From Bacteroidota bacterium (GTDB lineage: Bacteria > Bacteroidota > Bacteroidia > UKL13-3): a stretch of 64,000 bases of DNA. Position 1 is the first letter of the stretch. The number at the start of each line of letters is the position of its first letter. This document shows positions 2,660-58,895 of the stretch, in pieces. The stretch lies in assembly GCA_030680835.1 (NCBI GenBank), contig JAUXUD010000057.1, positions 62,001 to 126,000 of the forward strand, given 5' to 3'. Made by a program: the position numbers and the translations under genes. The notes beneath the pieces are model-generated. The model made no database searches and was not told the origin of the DNA. It was given only the letters and a program-made list of their open reading frames with translations.

Positions 2660-3073
2660 ATGAAAATCATGATAATTAATGGCCCGAATCTCAATTTATT
2701 AGGAGTGAGAGAGCCTGAAAAGTACGGAAAGTCCACTTTTGAAGACTATTTTAATGGATTAAAGGCCATTTTTCCACAAATACAGCTTGAATATTTTCAA
2801 AGTAATGTGGAAGGCGAGCTGATTAATTGTTTGCACAGGGCAGGATTTTCTTACGATGGAATTATTTTGAATGCCGGCGGCTATACACATACCTCGATTG
2901 CCATTGGTGATGCAGTAGCGGCTATTCAAACTCCCCTTATTGAGGTGCATATAACAAATATATGGGCCCGTGAAGATTTCCGGCAGCAATCTTTTATTTC
3001 GAAAAATGCAGCGGGAATCATTAGTGGCTTTGGATTAAAAAGTTATGAATTGGCGATACATTCCTTTTTATGA
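2660..3073 (+). CDS. aroQ: 3-dehydroquinate dehydratase, type II
   Basis: 137 residues, the usual size for the dodecameric type II enzyme, which converts 3-dehydroquinate to 3-dehydroshikimate in the shikimate pathway. The N-terminus IINGPNLNLLGVREPEKYG carries the conserved Arg17 and catalytic Tyr22. NAGGYTHTS and EVHITNIWAREDFR supply the Asn, the catalytic His and the C-terminal Arg. The segment normally reading H(I/L)SN(I/V)(H/Y)AREEFR has Thr for Ser and Trp for His/Tyr, so the active-site rim is somewhat divergent. The stop codon overlaps the next start (ATGA), so the gene is translationally coupled to the GNAT gene. Confidence 0.93.
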   Translation: MKIMIINGPNLNLLGVREPEKYGKSTFEDYFNGLKAIFPQIQLEYFQSNVEGELINCLHRAGFSYDGIILNAGGYTHTSIAIGDAVAAIQTPLIEVHITNIWAREDFRQQSFISKNAAGIISGFGLKSYELAIHSFL

Positions 3074-3522
3074 AACCCATACAAAAACAAATAGATTATA
3101 CCATTATCAGAGAAGCCAGCATAACCCAAATGCTTAAACAATTTAAGCTTATCCGGCAGCTTAATCCGAATCTTAAATTGGATGCGTTTAATAAAATGAT
3201 ACCTGAAATGGCAAAGCTCAACTATAAAATGTTATGCATTTTTGATGGTAAAAAATGTGTGGCTGTTTCGGGTTATTGGATTGGCGTTAAAATATATTGC
3301 GGCAAATACCTGGAGCTGGATAATGTAGTGGTCGATGAGTCCTATCGTTCAAAAGGTTTAGGAAAACTTTTGTGTGATGAATTGTTGAAAATTGGCATTG
3401 AAAACAACTGCAATGTCCTGATGCTGGATGCATACCTGAGTAATGAACCGGCGCATCGGTTTTATGAACGTGAAGGGTATGTGAAGAAGGGGTACCACTT
3501 TATTAAGAAGGCTGGTAAATGA
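3070..3522 (+). CDS. GNAT family N-acetyltransferase
   Basis: 150 residues. The acetyl-CoA binding motif A is clear: LDNVVVDESYRSKGLGKLLCDELL around residues 85-108, containing the R/Q-x-x-G-x-G/A pyrophosphate loop. Motif B follows in the NEPAHRFYEREGYVKKGYHF segment near the C-terminus. The acceptor substrate cannot be deduced. The start overlaps the aroQ stop by 4 bp, so the two genes form a small operon. A heptad repeat begins immediately after the TGA. Confidence 0.85.
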   Translation: MKPIQKQIDYTIIREASITQMLKQFKLIRQLNPNLKLDAFNKMIPEMAKLNYKMLCIFDGKKCVAVSGYWIGVKIYCGKYLELDNVVVDESYRSKGLGKLLCDELLKIGIENNCNVLMLDAYLSNEPAHRFYEREGYVKKGYHFIKKAGK

Positions 3523-3557
3523 GCATGGAGCAGTGGGCATGGAGCAGTGGGCTTGGG
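3523..3557. repeat. Heptad array GCATGGA/GCAGTGG
   Basis: Five 7-bp units beginning directly after the GNAT stop codon: GCATGGA, GCAGTGG, GCATGGA, GCAGTGG, GCTTGGG. It is one of several sequence families in the window that share a 7-bp period. Confidence 0.75.
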
Positions 3558-3567
3558 GTTTATGTAA

Positions 3568-3623
3568 GATGTACAATGTACGATGTACGATGTACGATGT
3601 ACAATGTACAATGTACAATGTAC
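3568..3623. repeat. Heptad array (G/A)ATGTAC, 8 copies
   Basis: Eight uninterrupted 7-bp units GATGTAC or AATGTAC. The same unit recurs at 7611-7729, 12841-12967 and 51489-51621. The array lies in the convergent gap between the GNAT gene and the methyltransferase gene. Confidence 0.92.
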
Positions 3624-3680: not shown

Positions 3681-3745
3681 CCTACACTCTTACCCTCCTA
3701 TACTCCTACCCCAACTCTAATACTCATACCTAATACCTCATACCT
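3681..3745. repeat. Octad CCTACACT-type and heptad CATACCT arrays
   Basis: Four 8-bp units (CCTACACT, CTTACCCT, CCTATACT, CCTACCCC; 3681-3712) are followed by three 7-bp units CATACCT/AATACCT/CATACCT (3725-3745). The latter is the reverse complement of the AGGTATG unit at 35785. The methyltransferase stop codon (TCA on the plus strand, 3738-3740) is formed by the heptad unit. Confidence 0.8.
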
Positions 3746-4394
3746 CTGGATTTATTTTTGCCACGAGGGCAATTTGAAGGTATAGGGTATCGAATTGGTT
3801 GGTGAGGGTTAGGAGGCTAAAAATAAATGCGAGCAATTGATATTTTATTGATTTGGTTGGGTTAATTCCTTTGATCATTTCAACCTTGTAACCACATTCT
3901 TCAAATAATTTTTTTGAACTTTTTTGGGTAAAAAACCTAAAATGGGTATAGTCCAGAATTCCGGAATCGGTATACTCCCATTCTCCTTTAACCGCAACCT
4001 GAAACAAATTTTTTATATATCTGAAGTTGGGGATTGAAGTGATGATTTTACCCGATTCACTTAATTTTGATTTTAACAATTTTAAATTATCCTTCGGATA
4101 AAGCATGTGCTCCAAAACATCATTAAATATGATTACATCAAAGTAATTTTCGGGAATCTGGTGTATTGCATCTTCCAGTTTCGCGTGGATTACCTTAAAC
4201 AATTTTGAAGCAGCACGTTCGGCAGATGCATCATCTGGTTCAATTCCCCAGCATTCAATTCCCTGAGCGATTAATTGCTTCGAAAAACTGCCTTCACCGC
4301 ATCCTATTTCAAGAATTTTTTGGGCAGTAAGTGGTATAAATGCAAGCATTTCGCTTCGGTTGCTGCCATAATAATCTGACCTGATGTGTTCCAT
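3738..4394 (-). CDS. Class I SAM-dependent methyltransferase
   Basis: 218 residues. Motif I ILEIGCGEGS lies at residues 27-36, followed by the acidic end of strand 2 (GIEPDD) and FDVIIFNDVLEHM, the motif of UbiG/Methyltransf_11/23 enzymes. The C-terminal half (IPNFRYIKNLF, DYTHFRFFT) resembles methyltransferases found in cell-surface glycan clusters, so a sugar or lipid acceptor is possible but not shown. The last codons (Glu-Val-stop) coincide with the AGGTATGA heptad repeat downstream. The gene is separated by 51 bp from the next gene on the same strand and may share its transcript. Confidence 0.8.
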   Translation of the reverse strand: MEHIRSDYYGSNRSEMLAFIPLTAQKILEIGCGEGSFSKQLIAQGIECWGIEPDDASAERAASKLFKVIHAKLEDAIHQIPENYFDVIIFNDVLEHMLYPKDNLKLLKSKLSESGKIITSIPNFRYIKNLFQVAVKGEWEYTDSGILDYTHFRFFTQKSSKKLFEECGYKVEMIKGINPTKSIKYQLLAFIFSLLTLTNQFDTLYLQIALVAKINPEV

Positions 4395-7610: not shown

Positions 7611-7729
7611 AATGTACGATGTACGATGTACGATATACGATGTACGATGTATGATGTACGATATACGATGTACGATGTACGATATACGATGTATGATGTA
7701 CGATATACGATGTACGATGTATAATGTAC
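7611..7729. repeat. Heptad array GATGTAC, 17 copies
   Basis: Seventeen consecutive 7-bp units of GATGTAC and its one-base variants GATATAC, GATGTAT and AATGTAC, filling almost all of the gap between convergent rsgA and the cyclase gene. The variants occur in a near-regular alternation. Open frames that read through it merely translate the repeat. Confidence 0.95.
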
Positions 7730-12840: not shown

Positions 12841-12967
12841 GATGTACGATGTACGATGTACAATGTACGATGTACGATGTACAATGTACGATGTACGATG
12901 TACAATGTACAATGTACGATGTACGATATGCAATGTACGCCCCGATAGCTATCGCGGTACAATGTAC
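12841..12967. repeat. Heptad array GATGTAC with an inserted palindrome
   Basis: Fourteen 7-bp units (GATGTAC/AATGTAC, 12841-12938) are interrupted by a 22-bp segment, 12939-12960, after which the array resumes with AATGTAC (12961-12967). The insert contains the palindrome CGATAGCTATCG (12943-12954) and ends in GTAC, duplicating the last four bases of the preceding unit. Confidence 0.92.
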
Positions 12968-26927: not shown

Positions 26928-28487
26928 ATGAACAAACGTGTTATTCTCTTGATTTTAGATGGCTGGGGAATTGGAAAACCCTATCCCGGAAATGCAATAA
27001 ACCTGGCTCATACCCCCCATTTTGATGCCCTGATTAAAAAGTATCCCGATAGCCAATTACATACTTGTGGCGAATGGGTGGGATTGCCTGATGGGCAGAT
27101 GGGAAACAGTGAAGTTGGACATATGAATATTGGTGCCGGAAGAGTTGTTTACCAGCAATTGGTTTTGATTAATAAAGCCTTTAAAGAAAAATCGGTTTAT
27201 CACAATAAAGTATTGCTCGATGCCATTATATATGCGCGCGTTAAAAATAAAAAAATTCATTTAATCGGACTGGTTAGCGATGGCGGCGTACACAGCAGTA
27301 TTGAGCATCTAAAAGGTTTGTGCAGTATGCTGCATGAAAAGCAATTCAATAACTTTTTTGTGCACGCCTTTACCGATGGCAGAGATACCGACCCTAAAGG
27401 CGGACAACTTTATTTAAAAGACCTTCAAAATCATTTGGTTCAAACCGGCGGTAACATAGCAAGTGTAATTGGCCGCTACTATGCCATGGACCGGGATAAG
27501 CGCTGGGAACGTATAAAATTTGCCTACGATTTACTGGTAAAAGGCAAGGGTGAACCCACAACTGATTTATTAAAAACAATTGCTGAACACTATGCAAATA
27601 ATGAAACCGATGAATTTTTAAAACCCATTATTTGTTTAAACGAACATCAAAATCCGCTTGCTGTTATTGAAGATGGCGATGTGGTTATCAATTTCAATTT
27701 CCGTACCGACCGTGGCCGCGAAATAACCACTGTGTTGACACAACAGGCATTTCCTGAACATGAAATGACTCCCTTGAATCTGAATTATATTACCCTGACC
27801 GAATACGATAAAACCTTTAATCATGTAAGCATTGTTTTTCCAGATATTGAATTAAACAATACCCTGGGCGAAGTGCTTGAACAGCATAATAAAAAACAGG
27901 TTCGTATTGCCGAAACCGAAAAATATCCGCATGTTACTTTCTTTTTTAGTGGCGGTCAGGAAAGCATGTTTAAAGATGAATCCCGCTATATGGCACCCTC
28001 ACCCAAAGTGGCTACCTACGATTTACAACCCGAAATGAGTGCCGAACAAGTATGCCGGTTTACCCTCGATGAAATTGAAAAAGCCGAAGCTGATTTTATC
28101 TGTGTAAATTTTGCCAATGCCGATATGGTTGGACATACGGGTGTAATTCCTGCCGAAATTATCGCGGTACAAAAAGTTGATGAATGCCTGGGAAGAATTG
28201 CAGAAGCTGCTCTGGACAAAGGTTACAGCCTGCTGGTAACTGCCGATCATGGCAATGGCGAATATATGATAAACGAAGAAGATGGAACGCCAAACACCGC
28301 ACATACCACCAATGATGTACCCTTAATATTAATTGAACCGGGTCTCGACTACGCTCGACCTGACAAGCAAAGGATAAAAAACGGAAAGCTGGCTGATTTG
28401 GCTCCCACTATTTTGGAGTTGATGGGCATTGATCAGCCTGAGGAAATGACGGGGGAGAGTTTGTTGGAGAGGAGGGTAGGAGGGTAA
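26928..28487 (+). CDS. gpmI: 2,3-bisphosphoglycerate-independent phosphoglycerate mutase
   Basis: 519 residues; most relatives have about 505-515. Metal ligands and the nucleophile are present: Asp11 (LLILDGWG), Ser61 (GQMGNSEVGHMNIGAG), HAFTDGRDTDP, NFRTDRGRE and TADHGNGEYM. It interconverts 2- and 3-phosphoglycerate in glycolysis. Two oddities: a stretch near the C-terminus (Pro-Gly-Leu-Asp-Tyr-Ala-Arg-Pro-Asp) is encoded by what looks like a dispersed palindromic repeat at about 28338-28362, and the last residues (Arg-Arg-Val-Gly-Gly) plus the stop lie inside an octad array. Confidence 0.95.
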   Translation: MNKRVILLILDGWGIGKPYPGNAINLAHTPHFDALIKKYPDSQLHTCGEWVGLPDGQMGNSEVGHMNIGAGRVVYQQLVLINKAFKEKSVYHNKVLLDAIIYARVKNKKIHLIGLVSDGGVHSSIEHLKGLCSMLHEKQFNNFFVHAFTDGRDTDPKGGQLYLKDLQNHLVQTGGNIASVIGRYYAMDRDKRWERIKFAYDLLVKGKGEPTTDLLKTIAEHYANNETDEFLKPIICLNEHQNPLAVIEDGDVVINFNFRTDRGREITTVLTQQAFPEHEMTPLNLNYITLTEYDKTFNHVSIVFPDIELNNTLGEVLEQHNKKQVRIAETEKYPHVTFFFSGGQESMFKDESRYMAPSPKVATYDLQPEMSAEQVCRFTLDEIEKAEADFICVNFANADMVGHTGVIPAEIIAVQKVDECLGRIAEAALDKGYSLLVTADHGNGEYMINEEDGTPNTAHTTNDVPLILIEPGLDYARPDKQRIKNGKLADLAPTILELMGIDQPEEMTGESLLERRVGG

Positions 28488-28587
28488 GAAAATAGGAGGG
28501 TAGGAAGGTGTGAGCGTAAGAAAATTTTTCATTGTAGATCATACCATCCTACACTCTTACACTCCTACCCTCCTACGCTCTTATACT
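28470..28587. repeat. Inverted pair of octad arrays AGGAGGGT / CCTACCCT
   Basis: Left arm 28470-28525: seven 8-bp units (AGGAGGGT, AGGAGGGT, AAGAAAAT, AGGAGGGT, AGGAAGGT, GTGAGCGT, AAGAAAAT). Right arm 28548-28587: five units (CCTACACT, CTTACACT, CCTACCCT, CCTACGCT, CTTATACT). The arms are approximately complementary and could fold into a long imperfect hairpin between convergent gpmI and the MazG-like gene. Both stop codons (28485-28487 and 28581-28583) are inside the arms. Confidence 0.88.
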
Positions 28588-28916
28588 CCCAATTTGTCAT
28601 TGGCTTTATGCCTTTCAGAATCGCGTTGGGTTTTCTTAGCCATATTTTTTTCAAACGCTTCTGTGAGGTTGATATTGGTTTGATTGGCCAGGCAAATCAG
28701 TACCCATAAAACATCAGCCATTTCATCGGCCAGGTCAATATTGTTATCGCTGCCTTTAAATGATTGATCGCCATATTTACGTGCCATAATGCGGGCCACT
28801 TCGCCTACTTCTTCCATTAAAATTGCGGTATTGGTAAGTTCACTAAAATACCTTACGCCAATGGTTTTTATCCAGTTATCAACCCGTAACTGGGCATCTT
28901 CAATGGTTATACTCAT
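28581..28916 (-). CDS. MazG-like nucleotide pyrophosphohydrolase
   Basis: 111 residues. The all-alpha NTP-PPase signature is present: ILMEEVGEVARIMARKY gives the Glu-Glu-x-x-Glu metal site and DLADEMADVLWVLICLAN the second acidic motif. It probably hydrolyses non-canonical or excess nucleoside triphosphates; the exact substrate is unknown. It overlaps the upstream dtd gene by 4 bp. The terminal Leu-Gly-Val and stop are made by the octad repeat. Confidence 0.88.
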   Translation of the reverse strand: MSITIEDAQLRVDNWIKTIGVRYFSELTNTAILMEEVGEVARIMARKYGDQSFKGSDNNIDLADEMADVLWVLICLANQTNINLTEAFEKNMAKKTQRDSERHKANDKLGV

Positions 28917-34709: not shown

Positions 34710-35786
34710 ATGGCTATAATAAAATTTGATAACAGCAACGCTCAGTTTTTTAATACTTTACGGCAACGGGTTGATGAATATTTCGTTACAAAAAACATCA
34801 AAACAACAGGTAATTTCAGACTTTTTTTAAAGACCGGTATTTTAATCAGCATTTTGGCTGTTTGCTATACCATTTTGGTGTTTTTCACTCCGGAGTCGGG
34901 TTGGTTAAGTTTGGGTATTTGTGCCATAATGGGTTTTGATATGGCTGCCATTGGCTTTAATGTAATGCATGATGGCGCACACGGAAGTTATTCGAGCAAA
35001 AAATGGGTAAATGAAATGATGAGTTACTCCTTAAATATTATGGGTGGAAGCAGTTATATGTGGAAGCAAAAACACAATATCAACCACCACTCCTATACCA
35101 ATATTGAAGGCATGGATGATGATATCGACATCAAACCCTGGATTCGTGTTCACGAAAATCAACCCCGTCACTGGTTTCATCGTTTCCAGCATGTTTACGG
35201 CATGTTGTTATATGGCATGACGTATTTATTCTGGATATTCATGAATGATTTTACCAAATACTTTGGCGGAAAAATTTCGCAGCATACTACCATGCGTAAA
35301 ATGATACTCAGCGAACACATTATTTTTTGGATTACCAAAATCGGGTACGTGGGTTTGTTTTTAATTCTCCCTTTCTTTTTTGCAGGAGTAATTAATACTT
35401 TAATTGGTTATGCCGTTACGGTTTTTGTATGCGGACTGGTAATCGCGGTTGTATTTCAACTGGCGCATGTTGTTGAAGATGCTCCTTTTATTGATACCCA
35501 TGGAGAGAGTACAAAAATTGAAACCGAATGGGCCATACATCAGTTAAATACTACATTTAATTTTGCCACCGGCAGTAAAATTGTAGGCTGGTTGCTGGGC
35601 GGATTAAATTTTCAGGTTGAACACCATTTATTTCCACGCATCAGTCATGTACATTACCCGCAGTTAAATAAAATTCTGATGCAAACCTGCAAAGATTTTG
35701 GGGTAGCATATAATGAATTTCCAACGGTTATTTCTGCATTGCGTTCACACCTGATGCACTTGAAACAGATTGGAATGACAGCATAG
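34710..35786 (+). CDS. Membrane fatty acid desaturase
   Basis: 358 residues from the ATG at 34710 (MAIIKFDNSNAQFF); the upstream extension is spurious. The three histidine boxes of acyl-lipid or linoleoyl-CoA-type desaturases are present: HDGAH at 87-91, HNINHH at 122-127 and QVEHH near 305. These bind the di-iron centre. At least four membrane helices surround them. There is no N-terminal cytochrome b5 domain, so an external electron donor is needed. It introduces a double bond into membrane fatty acids; the position is not predictable. Confidence 0.9.
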   Translation: MAIIKFDNSNAQFFNTLRQRVDEYFVTKNIKTTGNFRLFLKTGILISILAVCYTILVFFTPESGWLSLGICAIMGFDMAAIGFNVMHDGAHGSYSSKKWVNEMMSYSLNIMGGSSYMWKQKHNINHHSYTNIEGMDDDIDIKPWIRVHENQPRHWFHRFQHVYGMLLYGMTYLFWIFMNDFTKYFGGKISQHTTMRKMILSEHIIFWITKIGYVGLFLILPFFFAGVINTLIGYAVTVFVCGLVIAVVFQLAHVVEDAPFIDTHGESTKIETEWAIHQLNTTFNFATGSKIVGWLLGGLNFQVEHHLFPRISHVHYPQLNKILMQTCKDFGVAYNEFPTVISALRSHLMHLKQIGMTA

Positions 35787-35889
35787 GTATGAGGTATGAG
35801 GTATGAGGTATGAGGTATGAGTAAAAGATTCATTACATAATTAAACATTCACTTTCTCACTCATATCTAATAACTCATACCTAATACCT
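35785..35889. repeat. Inverted heptad arrays AGGTATG / CATACCT
   Basis: Left arm: five perfect AGGTATG units, 35785-35819, the first overlapping the desaturase stop. Right arm: CATATCT, AATAACT, CATACCT, AATACCT at 35862-35889, ending 2 bp before the deacetylase stop. The two arms are approximate reverse complements around an A/T-rich spacer of 42 bases, between convergent genes. Confidence 0.9.
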
Positions 35890-35891
35890 TC

Positions 35892-36926
35892 TTAACTCAG
35901 TTTTCGTTGTACTATAGATCTTCCTCGTATTTTATTAATGGTTTGAAATACCAGCAAAGCCTTTAAATAAGTTTGCATATCGCTTAAATTATTATCGCCG
36001 TCAAAGCGATGTACCATATTCGGTACCATGTCTTTTTTGAGTTTTTGTGAGCCAAAAAGCAATTCAAAAGGTGCTGTTTTCTTTAGTTCATTAAAAAAAC
36101 GCATGGGTGTTTTGATATCGGTAAACGGAAATGAAAACGTACGGTGGGTTTCATTAAAATGTTCCTTCAGGTACTGCATGGCCGATTCGGTTTGATGTAC
36201 CTGTTCATCCGTATCAATATTCCAGTATTCGGGGTGCCACTCGCTATGGCTGCCCAGTATAAATCCTTTGTTTTTTAAGTCCTGAACCTGTGTGGTGTTC
36301 ATGTAAGGTTTATGCTGCTTTAAATAGGCTTCAAACGAGTACTCAATCGCATGCGCAATGATATCATATACCTGTCTGTTTTTATAGTTGATACTTTTTA
36401 TTCCTTTATAATAATCCGGCTGTATTATATTATTTTCAATTAATATTTCCTGAACCTTTTTTATAAGGCTTTCGCTGTTTTGTAATTTAATATATTCCAA
36501 TAATATACTGGCCTTATACCGGTGCAATAATGCCTTATTATCAATCACAGCGGTATTCAGATAAAAGATGGCCGGAATGCCTTTGCGCAACATGATTTCC
36601 GGGGCATTTTCATAGGTTTGTCTCAGGCCATCATCAAATGTAATGATGAAACTTTTAGGTGGAACCGGCTTATTCTCACGGTAACAGGCTAACAAGTCAT
36701 CATAGCTTATGGGCTTTAAATTCTTTAACAACAAATCCATATCCTGTTCAAATTGTCTGCTGTTTTTTGAACCATACGGCAAAATATGTTCGAGGTGAAT
36801 TAAGCGTTCTTCGGTTATTGCATGATAAATGGGAACAAACAAACTGTGTTGTTTATTTAAAGCGGCTAATGGAGTGAAAGGAAGCCAGGAACAGGCTTTA
36901 AAAAAATATTGTTTTTTACTGGGCAT
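35892..36926 (-). CDS. Polysaccharide deacetylase family protein
   Basis: 344 residues from the ATG at 36924-36926 (MPSKKQYFFKACSWL), which overlaps the upstream glycosyltransferase by 11 bp. The NodB-homology motif SFIITFDDGLRQTYENAP around 105-122 supplies the catalytic and metal aspartates. The His pair occurs as LGSHSEWHPEYW around 235-246. It probably deacetylates a surface or cell-wall sugar polymer. Overlap with the GT2 gene suggests the two act on the same glycan. Confidence 0.85.
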   Translation of the reverse strand: MPSKKQYFFKACSWLPFTPLAALNKQHSLFVPIYHAITEERLIHLEHILPYGSKNSRQFEQDMDLLLKNLKPISYDDLLACYRENKPVPPKSFIITFDDGLRQTYENAPEIMLRKGIPAIFYLNTAVIDNKALLHRYKASILLEYIKLQNSESLIKKVQEILIENNIIQPDYYKGIKSINYKNRQVYDIIAHAIEYSFEAYLKQHKPYMNTTQVQDLKNKGFILGSHSEWHPEYWNIDTDEQVHQTESAMQYLKEHFNETHRTFSFPFTDIKTPMRFFNELKKTAPFELLFGSQKLKKDMVPNMVHRFDGDNNLSDMQTYLKALLVFQTINKIRGRSIVQRKLS

Positions 36927-42430: not shown

Positions 42431-42535
42431 TCGTAATTCGTAATTCGTCACTCGTAATTCGTCACTCGTAATTCGTCACTCGTAATTCGTCACTTGTAAT
42501 TCGTCACTTGTAATTCGTCACTCGTAATTCGTATT
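42431..42535. repeat. Heptad array TCGTAAT/TCGTCAC, 15 copies
   Basis: Fifteen 7-bp units. From 42438 the two forms TCGTAAT and TCGTCAC alternate strictly, so the array also has a 14-bp period; two units begin TTG instead of TCG. It sits between the EF-G-like gene and the convergent Fn3 gene. It is not a CRISPR because there are no unique spacers. Confidence 0.95.
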
Positions 42536-42544
42536 TCCTTCCTC

Positions 42545-44338
42545 TTAATGCTGAATGAGGAACTTCATAAGTTGAGTACCTTCACTTCCTTTTACCTGTA
42601 CAAAATAAATTCCGTTTTCTACGGCATCAGTGGCGATTTCAATTTCATTGGAACCTTCAACCACATCCTTATTTTGTAAGATAACAACTTTGCCGTAATA
42701 ATCGTGAATGGTACAACTGATTTGCTGGCTGCTACCCGACTGGTAATACAACTTTAAATTTGAACCTGATGGGTTCGGACCTAATATCAATTGTGGGGGT
42801 GTTTTGAATTTGCTTCCTACCCATTCGCTAAACAAGCCATTGTTTGTGGTGGTTGAGCAAACAGACTGCACCTTCCATTCGTAGTTTGTATTAGGTAAAA
42901 GATTCCCAATTGTTTTTGAGTTTACAGTCCAGAAAGTAGTTGTCCAGTTTAAGCTGTTTAAGGGTTTGTATTTTACATTAAAGCCCATTTTATTACTTGA
43001 ATTCCAGCCTAAGGTAACGTGGCTGAATGAGTGAATAGTTGAACTTAGATTAGTAGGTGCCGGACAAGGATTAGGGGTGCCTCCCAGGGTGGTGAATGTT
43101 TTAAGAGCAGATAATGCACTGGTTATTTCCTTATTGGTTCCTGATGCACCTGCACATACTGTTTGCACCTGATATTGATAAATTGTTCCCGGAGTTAAAT
43201 TATTTAAAATAACATAATTTGTGCTGGTATTTACTGAAGTAAAGTGTTTGTCGGGGGTGATTGTAGCTTTAAAAATAACTTTATAAGCAATTGCACCACT
43301 AACCGGATTCCACATTATTTTGGCACTGTTTGAAGTTATTGCTTTTGCCGATATCTCAGTGGGTACTGCACAGGGTTCTGGATGACTTCCGCCCAAAGTA
43401 ACAAATGGCTTAATGGCAGAAAATGCACTTGTTATAAGCGTGTTGGTTCCTGATTCGCCACAAACCGTTTGTACTTTAAACTCGTAGTTTGTGGCGGGGT
43501 TCAAACCCGAGAGATTTAAATAATTGGTAAGTGTATTTACCGTTGTGGAAGTTGTTGACTTTGTAGATTTGTAAACAACATTATAAGATTTTGCCCCGCT
43601 CACCGGATTCCAGGTTAAGCGTGCTGAGTTTGCTGTAATTTCTTTCGCAAGTAAATCTACCGGAACGGCACAGGGATGTGTAGTGCCCGACAAGGTGCTA
43701 AAAGTTTTAACAGATGAGTAAGCACTTGTAATAACCAATCCTGCATTGCTTCCACCACAAACTGTTTGAACTTTAAATTCATAGAGTGTAGCTGGACTTA
43801 AATTTGTTCTTATTAAGTAATTTACAGTTGTGTTAACTGTTGTATAAGCAACCGATGAATTGGCAACTTTGTACATCACGTTATAAGAAGATGCGCCGCT
43901 TACAGCATTCCAAAATAATTTGGCCGAAGTTGCAGTAATTTCTTTGGCAAGCAATTCAATGGGTACTGCGCAAGGATTTGTAGTGCCTGCTAAAGTGGTA
44001 AATGTAGCCACAGCCGGATTTGAATAAACAACAACACCATTGGATTCACAAACTTTTTGAACCTTTGCCATATAGGTGGTGTTGGCTGTAAGGTTTGCCA
44101 AAGTTGCCGTGCTGGTATTTGTATTTACAAATAAAATGGGCGCGTTTGCAGGTGTTGAAGCCTGATAAGAAATTTTATAACTGCTCACGGTGCTTGTCCC
44201 GCTCCAGCTCAATGTAGCCGATGCAGCAGTTATATTAGCAACCGTAAGTGTGGTGGGTGCCGGGCAAAGAACCTGCCCTGATAAATACATGCATGAAAAA
44301 GCAAAAGAAATAATCAAAGAGTAAATTTTTGTTTTCAT
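42545..44338 (-). CDS. Secreted protein with five Fn3 domains and T9SS type A sorting domain
   Basis: 597 residues. A signal peptide (MKTKIYSLIISFAFSCMYLSG) precedes five fibronectin type III domains of about 95-100 residues. Each opens with a Cys-x-x-Pro motif (CPAPTTL, CAVPIEL, CAVPVDL, CAVPTEI, CPAPTNL) and has a second cysteine in a VC(E/G/A/S) strand, so each probably carries a disulfide. Domains 2 to 4 are very similar (LLAKEITA-type starts and FSTL-type ends), a sign of recent duplication. The C-terminal 75 residues are a type A sorting domain (LGPNPSGSNLKLYY, NGIYFVQV). It is probably an adhesin or binding protein. Confidence 0.88.
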   Translation of the reverse strand: MKTKIYSLIISFAFSCMYLSGQVLCPAPTTLTVANITAASATLSWSGTSTVSSYKISYQASTPANAPILFVNTNTSTATLANLTANTTYMAKVQKVCESNGVVVYSNPAVATFTTLAGTTNPCAVPIELLAKEITATSAKLFWNAVSGASSYNVMYKVANSSVAYTTVNTTVNYLIRTNLSPATLYEFKVQTVCGGSNAGLVITSAYSSVKTFSTLSGTTHPCAVPVDLLAKEITANSARLTWNPVSGAKSYNVVYKSTKSTTSTTVNTLTNYLNLSGLNPATNYEFKVQTVCGESGTNTLITSAFSAIKPFVTLGGSHPEPCAVPTEISAKAITSNSAKIMWNPVSGAIAYKVIFKATITPDKHFTSVNTSTNYVILNNLTPGTIYQYQVQTVCAGASGTNKEITSALSALKTFTTLGGTPNPCPAPTNLSSTIHSFSHVTLGWNSSNKMGFNVKYKPLNSLNWTTTFWTVNSKTIGNLLPNTNYEWKVQSVCSTTTNNGLFSEWVGSKFKTPPQLILGPNPSGSNLKLYYQSGSSQQISCTIHDYYGKVVILQNKDVVEGSNEIEIATDAVENGIYFVQVKGSEGTQLMKFLIQH

Positions 44339-50549: not shown

Positions 50550-51452
50550 ATGAATTCCTTACAATTAGTTAGTAAAATAAAATCAAAAGCTGACGATATA
50601 AATCAAAATATTCGTCAGATTCTGGATCCGGGTCTCAGTTTGACCAGCATAGAAAAGGAATTATTGAAAAAACAATGTCTCGATTTGTACGAACTTTTAA
50701 TGAAACTTAAAAGTGAATCTGACGAATTGGAAGAAAAATTGGCTGCTAAATTACCTCTTGCAGAAATTCAAAAACCGCTTGAAAAACCACTTTCGGATCT
50801 TCCAAAAAACATTGAATCCATTCGCGTTGAAAATACTGTAATTACCGAAAAACCATTACAAGTTGACAGTTTTAAAGAAGTTATGAGCTGGGCTGAACAT
50901 CATGAAGAAACATTGGATTCAATAGAACAAAAAGTAGAATTAAACATTGAAGCCCACATTGAAATTGAAAATGAAACGATTTCGGATACAAAAATCCAAA
51001 ACACGGAACCGTCCATAGATATCAACTTTGAAAAAGCACTGGAAAACAAACGGATTCAATACACGGTGATGCCCGATTCCGACAACAACCGGAATGAAGA
51101 AGCCAAACCTGCGATTCTCAATGCGGTTTTAATAGAAAAAGAAATCAGTTATAATGAACGGATTGCACAAAAAATTCAGGCAAATCCGGTTCCATTAGCT
51201 GACAAAACCATTGAAGCCCCGATTGATAATTTAAAGACTGCTATTAACCTCAACAAGAAAATTGCATTTGTAAACGAATTGTTTAAGGAAAATGTAGTTG
51301 AGTATGCAAAAGCAATTGATAAAATGAACAATGCAGAAGATCGTACCTATGCACTACAGATTTTTAATGAACTCAAACAATTTTATCAATGGCAACATTC
51401 AAATGAGTTGGTTCAGGAATTGGAAAAAATGGTAAAACGCAGGTATATGTAA
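50550..51452 (+). CDS. Hypothetical acidic coiled-coil protein
   Basis: 300 residues from the ATG at 50550 (MNSLQLVSKIKSKADDINQN). The N-terminal 75 residues are helical with a likely coiled coil (LLKKQCLDLYELLMKLKSESDELEEKLA). A long acidic, low-complexity middle follows. The conserved-looking C-terminal domain of about 70 residues (AINLNKKIAFVNELFKENVVEYAKAIDKMN, then ALQIFNEL) resembles a module found at the end of many Bacteroidota hypothetical proteins. No signal peptide or membrane segment is visible, so it is probably cytoplasmic. Function unknown. Confidence 0.65.
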   Translation: MNSLQLVSKIKSKADDINQNIRQILDPGLSLTSIEKELLKKQCLDLYELLMKLKSESDELEEKLAAKLPLAEIQKPLEKPLSDLPKNIESIRVENTVITEKPLQVDSFKEVMSWAEHHEETLDSIEQKVELNIEAHIEIENETISDTKIQNTEPSIDINFEKALENKRIQYTVMPDSDNNRNEEAKPAILNAVLIEKEISYNERIAQKIQANPVPLADKTIEAPIDNLKTAINLNKKIAFVNELFKENVVEYAKAIDKMNNAEDRTYALQIFNELKQFYQWQHSNELVQELEKMVKRRYM

Positions 51453-51488
51453 ATGTACGCTTGCCTGCCGTAACTTTAGTGAAGGCAG

Positions 51489-51649
51489 GATGTACGATGT
51501 ACGATGTACGATGTATGATGTACAATGTACGATGTACGATGTACAATGTACGATGTACGATGTATGATGTATGATATACGATGTACGATGTATGATGTAC
51601 GATGTACGATGTATGATGTACGATTTAGATTTTAGGATTTAGGATTTAA
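51489..51649. repeat. Heptad array GATGTAC (19 copies) changing to GATTTAG (4 copies)
   Basis: Nineteen units of GATGTAC and its variants (51489-51621) run in phase into GATTTAG, ATTTTAG, GATTTAG, GATTTAA (51622-51649). The change of unit without loss of the 7-bp phase suggests the period itself is maintained. Confidence 0.92.
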
Positions 51650-51652
51650 AAC

Positions 51653-51688
51653 AAAAAAGCCCATCACGAAAATCGTGATGGGCTTTTT
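51653..51688. terminator. Bidirectional intrinsic terminator
   Basis: AAAAAA, then stem GCCCATCACGA (51659-51669), loop AAA, stem TCGTGATGGGC (51673-51683), then TTTTT. A strong terminator, downstream of the hypothetical gene on the plus strand and of the giant CHU_C gene on the minus strand. Confidence 0.95.
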
Positions 51689-51705
51689 GTTGTTATGCCG
51701 GGTAT

Positions 51706-58823: not shown

Positions 58824-58895
58824 TTTTGGTCTGGTCTGTTTTTGGTCTGGTCGCGTTTTGGTCTGGTCGCGTTTTGGTCTGGTCGCGACCAGACC
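58824..58895. repeat. 16-bp tandem repeat TTTTGGTCTGGTCGCG ending in a palindrome
   Basis: Four 16-bp units at 58824, 58840, 58856 and 58872, the first with CTGT instead of CGCG at its end. The last unit runs into the perfect 20-bp palindrome GGTCTGGTCGCGACCAGACC (58876-58895). It lies between the sigma factor gene and the anti-sigma/CHU_C gene, upstream of the latter on its strand. Confidence 0.93.

Follow-up and report, generated by a model that had tools for sequence, protein, structure and literature searches.

How does a single heptamer, GATGTAC, come to stand in tandem in several gaps between unrelated genes (housekeeping and others), and what fixes its position and its strand? The window, that is, the whole stretch of 64,000 nucleotides that was analysed, contains four such arrays. 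Direct counting of units and TRF agree on all four; none overlaps a called gene, and the one-base variants AATGTAC, GATATAC and GATGTAT are present in them, as an earlier note made from the sequence had it. Other gaps hold other 7-mers or 14-mers (at 3523, 3717, 35785, 42438 and 58903), again in line with that note. The features of the window are as follows.

3523..3556, plus strand: GCATGGAGCAGTGG (14-mer) repeat, immediately behind the stop codon of gene 3070-3522
3568..3623, plus strand: GATGTAC array of 8 units, in a convergent gap on the 3' side of gene 3070-3522 (plus strand; GNAT acetyltransferase)
3717..3746, minus strand: CTCATAC repeat, adjoining the methyltransferase gene 3738-4394 (minus strand) at its 3' end; its sense reading is AGGTATG-like
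7611..7729, plus strand: GATGTAC array of 17 units, 5 bp past the rsgA stop codon (7605), in a convergent gap with a 7TM-adenylate/guanylate-cyclase gene on the far side
12841..12967, plus strand: GATGTAC array of 14 units (12841-12938), a 22-nt hairpin insert and one last unit (12961-12967), 9 bp past the polA stop codon (12831) and preceding a YitT-family gene
12939..12960, no strand assigned: hairpin insert GCCCCGATAGCTATCGCGGTAC, which splits the array 12841-12967; near-copies at arrays L145, L146 and L149
28470..28525, plus strand: repeat of an octamer of the AGGAGGGT type, where gene 26928-28487 (plus strand) has its stop codon
28542..28589, minus strand: repeat of an octamer of the TCCTACAC type (AGGAGTGT-like when read in sense), where gene 28581-28916 (minus strand) has its stop codon
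35785..35821, plus strand: AGGTATG array of about 5 units, where gene 34710-35786 (plus strand) has its stop codon
35859..35886, minus strand: CTCATACC-type repeat, 3' of gene 35892-36926 (minus strand)
42438..42532, minus strand: GAATTACGAGTGAC array (two related heptamers), 12 bp past the stop codon of gene 42545-44290 (minus strand)
51459..51488, no strand assigned: hairpin element GCTTGCCTGCCGTAACTTTAGTGAAGGCAG, between stop codon and array; copies at arrays L112 and L159
51489..51621, plus strand: GATGTAC array of 19 units, 36 bp past the stop codon of gene 50550-51452, in a convergent gap shared with the gene of a T9SS-sorted protein
51652..51689, no strand assigned: bidirectional intrinsic terminator (AAAAAAGCCCATCACG...CGTGATGGGCTTTTT), distal to the array; its position is conserved in five sister genomes

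AGGTATG, at 35785, represents a second unit family in an equivalent post-stop position. The repeat at 35859-35886 is complementary to that at 35785-35821, so the gap between the two genes is able to form a hairpin. Hairpin elements of two kinds, CCCCGATAGCTATCGGGG and CTTGCCTGCCGTAACTTTAGTGAAGGCAGG, both small and dispersed, occur in or beside arrays at the positions and arrays listed above; CCCCGATAGCTATCGGGG repeatedly separates one TAC of the unit from the next, in the manner of REP-type insertions. A 16-mer, TTTTGGTCTGGTCGCG, is present in four copies at 58824-58887 between two same-strand genes, where it adjoins ATTTTCT and CTACTTA heptamers.

Abundance and placement in the host genome

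The host belongs to the Bacteroidota, as indicated by the T9SS C-terminal domain encoded in the window and by its relatives, and its genome comprises 4.3 Mb in 104 contigs. Genome-level results were drawn from sequence searches and from sampled stretches, the sample consisting of 464 kb (the window and 20 stretches picked regardless of arrays). Genes were called by a simple codon model, under which individual gene boundaries are approximate and stop codons can be trusted where genes are long. Searching the whole genome returned 129 exact matches to (GATGTAC)3 (92+37) and 102 to (AGGTATG)3; the reversed string of each gave no match genome-wide. Period 7 is special in this genome: 19 arrays of this period scoring at least 14 were present in the 464 kb, compared with none in Markov-shuffled sequence, and the remaining periods between 5 and 12 yielded 0-3 arrays each. 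Of these 19 arrays, 18 are intergenic, though 89% of the sample is coding. Copy number in host arrays reaches about 30. Contigs C1, C6, C10, C15 and C34 start or finish within heptamer arrays; the arrays thus probably break the assembly, and their true number is probably higher than counted.

The arrays do exist, are abundant and keep strictly to places behind stop codons in the sense orientation, with nearly absolute polarity. This anchoring and polarity constitute the main regularity, which the earlier note overlooked. Placement was analysed for 38 GATGTAC arrays (most of the listed sites, read with their flanks) and for AGGTATG in 20 stretches chosen for that unit, with 2000 random placements within the same gaps as the null. 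The loci were picked by sequence and not by position, and the placement result is therefore not circular. A same-strand gene lies on the 5' side in 34 of the 38 GATGTAC arrays; the median distance from the 5' end of the array to the stop codon of that gene is 6.5 bp, and that to the next gene is 100 bp. Within 12 bp of a stop codon, 23/38 GATGTAC arrays stand in sense and 1 in antisense (null mean 4.6, maximum 11), as do 26/41 AGGTATG arrays in sense and 2 in antisense (null mean 4.8, maximum 12). Only one of the 38 GATGTAC arrays is within 12 bp of a start codon. In convergent gaps, the array is nearer the gene that is read in sense in 19/20 GATGTAC and 16/16 AGGTATG cases (35/36). Many arrays begin at the stop codon itself, for example TGATGTAC or TAAATGTAC. 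At L152, L143 and L216, the heptamer register (GAATGAC, GAAGTAC) crosses the stop codon into the last codons, and the stop codon itself falls within a unit.

Empty sites and turnover of units

At the orthologues of site 51489 in five sister genomes (G004, G006, G009, G012 and G017), a conserved terminator hairpin (AAAAAAGCCATCCGA...TCGGATGGCTTTTTT) comes 0-45 nt after the stop codon and precedes the end of the convergent gene. This array-free layout is the ancestral one. The terminator of the window begins 200 nt past the stop codon, and the array and the small hairpin element make up the difference. The array, placed past the stop codon but ahead of the conserved terminator, is therefore part of the transcribed 3' untranslated region (3'UTR), and it appears to be dispensable, since orthologous genes manage without it. 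A role of the arrays as terminators was rejected: terminator-like hairpins follow 7/82 arrays versus 30/328 genes, about as often, so the arrays are no replacement for terminators, and at 51489 the terminator is distal to the array and conserved.

The units themselves are replaced from genome to genome. (GATGTAC)3 was found in 3/64 genomes of the family, that is, in two besides the host, and was absent from all 18 congeners searched. The closest sister, G002, carries TTAGCTG/TTAGCCG units directly behind the rsgA stop codon, and has few heptamer arrays in 216 kb. Behind polA, GATGTAC was found in no sister genome, and G011 has CAGCTAG/CTTCTGG units (other 7/14-mers) there. G006 and G009 are rich in TATGAAT/TATGAAG arrays. 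Within host arrays, multi-unit blocks recur, and the edges consist of GANTTAY units in register (GAATTAC, GATTTAC or GAGTTAT) around an interior of GATGTAC or GAGGTAT, a layering that successive expansions inside an older array would leave. The frequent variants, G1>A and C7>T, are the deamination products at the CpG that joins units. Two further candidates were discarded. One-way growth until an ORF is reached was dropped because the arrays show no consistent gradient of purity and because slippage leaves flanks unoverwritten. As for three-frame stop cassettes, TATGAGG has stops in every frame and GATGTAC in none.

GATGTAC arrays also occur in scattered genomes of several phyla, the nearest matches to the long arrays being mostly Bacteroidales, Chitinophagales and Saprospiraceae MAGs. 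In the Kiruna MAG, 21/34 arrays are anchored at stop codons in sense (median 3 bp), and 13/34 lie before a start codon on the opposite strand. In TACGANN arrays from 18 additional genomes, the end closer to an ORF is the 5' one in 38 cases and the 3' one in 8, with anchoring at stop and start codons alike. Several of the genomes displayed other arrangements. Kiruna_bin-10044 (L015, L040, L043, L048 and L058) has period-8 arrays, AAATGGTG/TTTCACCA; several of them finish as TTTCACCA 5-8 bp ahead of a start codon, sometimes directly behind a GATGTAC array. In G139 and G257 (L222-L230 and L239-L241), TACGA cores come in fours with 2-nt linkers of mixed sequence, and TTGAACYTCAA usually stands about 10 nt further on; the whole resembles a dispersed element more than a simple tandem array. 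In G162 (L235-L238), an array faces an inverted array across 18-60 nt (about 410 nt in L238), so that the whole gap is able to form a hairpin. In a rabbit-gut Akkermansia MAG of low coding density, GATGTAC blocks recur every 136 bp within a larger repeat (L033, at 3424, 3560 and 3696).

Origin of the arrays and of their polarity

On balance, we lean towards the reading that the arrays are a lineage-specific heptamer satellite with high turnover, residing in the transcribed 3'UTR between stop codon and terminator. The dozens of loci, the stop-anchored 5' end, the unit on the coding strand, the orthologous sites that are empty or hold other repeats, the duplications and the degenerate edges all point to it. 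The most likely mechanism would be turnover of the satellite kind, with selection sparing coding and promoter DNA. Copy number would shift by replication slippage and unequal exchange inside arrays, and the dominant unit would move between loci by recombination or conversion. Purifying selection would exclude arrays from coding DNA and from the vicinity of start codons, leaving the 3'UTR, and the arrays would need to serve no function for the gene. Slippage, which the earlier note had offered, agrees with the layered and duplicated units but leaves unexplained the strand polarity and the recurrence of one unit across dozens of loci; by itself, neutral slippage would give no polarity, whereas the polarity observed is nearly absolute.

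RNA folding bears on this point. Self-pairing of (GAUGUAC)n involves, per unit, GUAC/GUAC, two G.U pairs and one A.A mismatch. For arrays of the window, the sense RNA folds more strongly than the antisense RNA (-36.5 versus -21.5 and -43.8 versus -24.7 kcal/mol), because the G.U pairs form in the sense strand only, and AGGTATG arrays fold at -14.7 in sense versus 0 in antisense. Folding of the sense strand, as modelled here, could be the reason for polarity: expansion might be favoured in ribosome-free nascent RNA just behind the stop codon, a step proposed because the sense strand, G+T-rich and able to form RNA hairpins, folds there. However, for AGGAGGGT and GGAGATG, both in sense behind stop codons, the computation gave no fold; such units are polar too, and folding is therefore not a sufficient reason for polarity. 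Also counter to this step, many arrays in other genomes are antisense ahead of start codons.

The same folding underlies a functional alternative, in which the array RNA folds into a long hairpin rod and so protects the 3' end of the mRNA or keeps read-through from entering the convergent neighbour. The location of the array in a transcribed stretch ahead of the terminator is consistent with such an element, as is the preference for convergent gaps, which hold 14/25 heptamer-type arrays and account for 49/281 gaps in the sample. In the host, variants that keep pairing (G1>A, 71; C7>T, 23) also exceed the pairing-breaking G4>A (8), but CpG deamination would equally yield G1>A and C7>T. The Kiruna MAG's commonest variant, G4>T, breaks pairing, and conserved RNA pairing by way of compensating variants, which fits the host genome, was rejected because it fails there. 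With orthologous genes that lack arrays, other units unfolded in the same place (AGGAGGGT, GGAGATG) and start-anchored antisense arrays in other genomes, we consider a functional 3'UTR element unlikely.

We hold it to be improbable that the arrays are sites for an RNA- or DNA-binding protein at 7-nt spacing, with a 5-nt core, TAYGA, and 2-nt linkers. GATGTAC, GAATTAC, GAGGTAT and GAGTTAT all reduce to TAYGA+NN; the core is present in 12/21 de novo period-7 arrays versus 1.4 expected from letter shuffles, (TAYGANN)4 has 420 matches in the host genome versus 1 for the reversed control, and four cores with mixed linkers recur in some other genera. Yet only 3/10 distinct host units have the core, and variation in GATGTAC arrays hits the core and not the linker. 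A universal TACGA core was rejected, since across Bacteroidota TACGANN was found in 19/296 genomes but an arbitrary control, TGACANN, in 6/118. The earlier note had suggested a protein ruler, for which no candidate protein was found: the copy number of RRM proteins does not follow the arrays (G006 has arrays and no RRM match), so docking of an RRM protein was dismissed, and the consulted passages of a study on RbpB mention no such motif. It is highly improbable that the arrays derive from a mobile element, as its remains or ends, or were made at ORF boundaries by a templated enzyme that adds repeats: identical dispersed units, one heptamer in several phyla, the conserved TTGAACYTCAA stretch in G139 and G257 and the fixed phase of array ends speak for such an origin, but in the host genome no flank was found to be conserved outside the heptamer register, neither a target duplication nor a linked enzyme was found, and older in-register units explain the end phase.

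Relation to known repeat systems

The satellite reading places the arrays among intergenic heptamer repeats known from other bacteria. G-rich heptamers, GGGAATC in Xanthomonas and GGGGA(T/C)T in Nostoc, have their 5' end near an ORF and lie on the coding strand if downstream of it (Rehm et al. 2015, PMC4692102). The host arrays, too, have their 5' end near an ORF and lie on the coding strand downstream of it, and they share with those heptamers the dispersed intergenic arrays, the convergent-oriented pairs and the neighbours without functional class. However, GATGTAC and AGGTATG have no run of three Gs and cannot form a G-quadruplex, whereas the units of Rehm et al. bear G-tracts, and start-codon anchoring, frequent in those heptamers, is rare in the host genome. 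The same placement rule in units without G-tracts is thus independent of G-quadruplexes, and its occurrence in Xanthomonas, Nostoc and the host with unrelated units argues against a G-quadruplex link as its cause. It seems distinctly unlikely that post-stop sense placement holds for heptamer arrays of bacteria in general, irrespective of sequence, and points to a directional process, tied to the termination of transcription or translation, by which 7-nt repeats arise or persist in nascent RNA that is uncovered, or in its DNA template. Two non-G-rich families at dozens of loci, together with empty sister sites and the different heptamer of G002, make the origin of polar arrays directly testable.

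The short tandemly repeated repetitive (STRR) sequences of cyanobacteria are tandem, intergenic repeats of period 7 with several families per genome, and the host arrays are alike in each of these respects. The resemblance to STRR that the earlier note saw is therefore apt as a comparison of kind; the phylum (Bacteroidota) differs, as the units appear to. Two other classes were rejected. The arrays lie behind stop codons and away from start codons, unlike phase-variation contingency loci, in which a repeat within an ORF or promoter lets copy number switch expression, and their units are contiguous with no unique spacers, unlike CRISPR arrays.

The earlier note knew of no description for this lineage, but the phylum is covered: MacGregor (2015, PMC4679880) reported TAACTGA repeats in Beggiatoaceae, Cyanobacteria and some Bacteroidetes, with intergenic heptamer arrays in five Bacteroidetes. 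As in the host, one heptamer occupies many intergenic loci and is patchy across phyla, and in Gramella and Aequorivita other heptamers share gaps with TAACTGA (PMC4679880). TAACTGA is mostly present in 2-6 copies just upstream of start codons, whereas host arrays lie downstream of stop codons and reach about 30 copies; the host units are unrelated to it in sequence, and it is not among them. Long simple sequence repeats with units of 5-11 nt, as summarized in PMC4679880 from Mrazek et al. (2007), are genome-specific and non-coding, and heptamers are their commonest unit size. The host arrays are likewise tandem arrays in this unit range, beyond chance and mostly noncoding; against that summary they differ in nothing of kind and provide a further case. 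The arrays thus belong to a known class of intergenic heptamer repeats, for which the lineage is new, and what they add to it is a stop-codon and sense-strand rule in units that are not G-rich, empty orthologous sites and the replacement of units at the same site.
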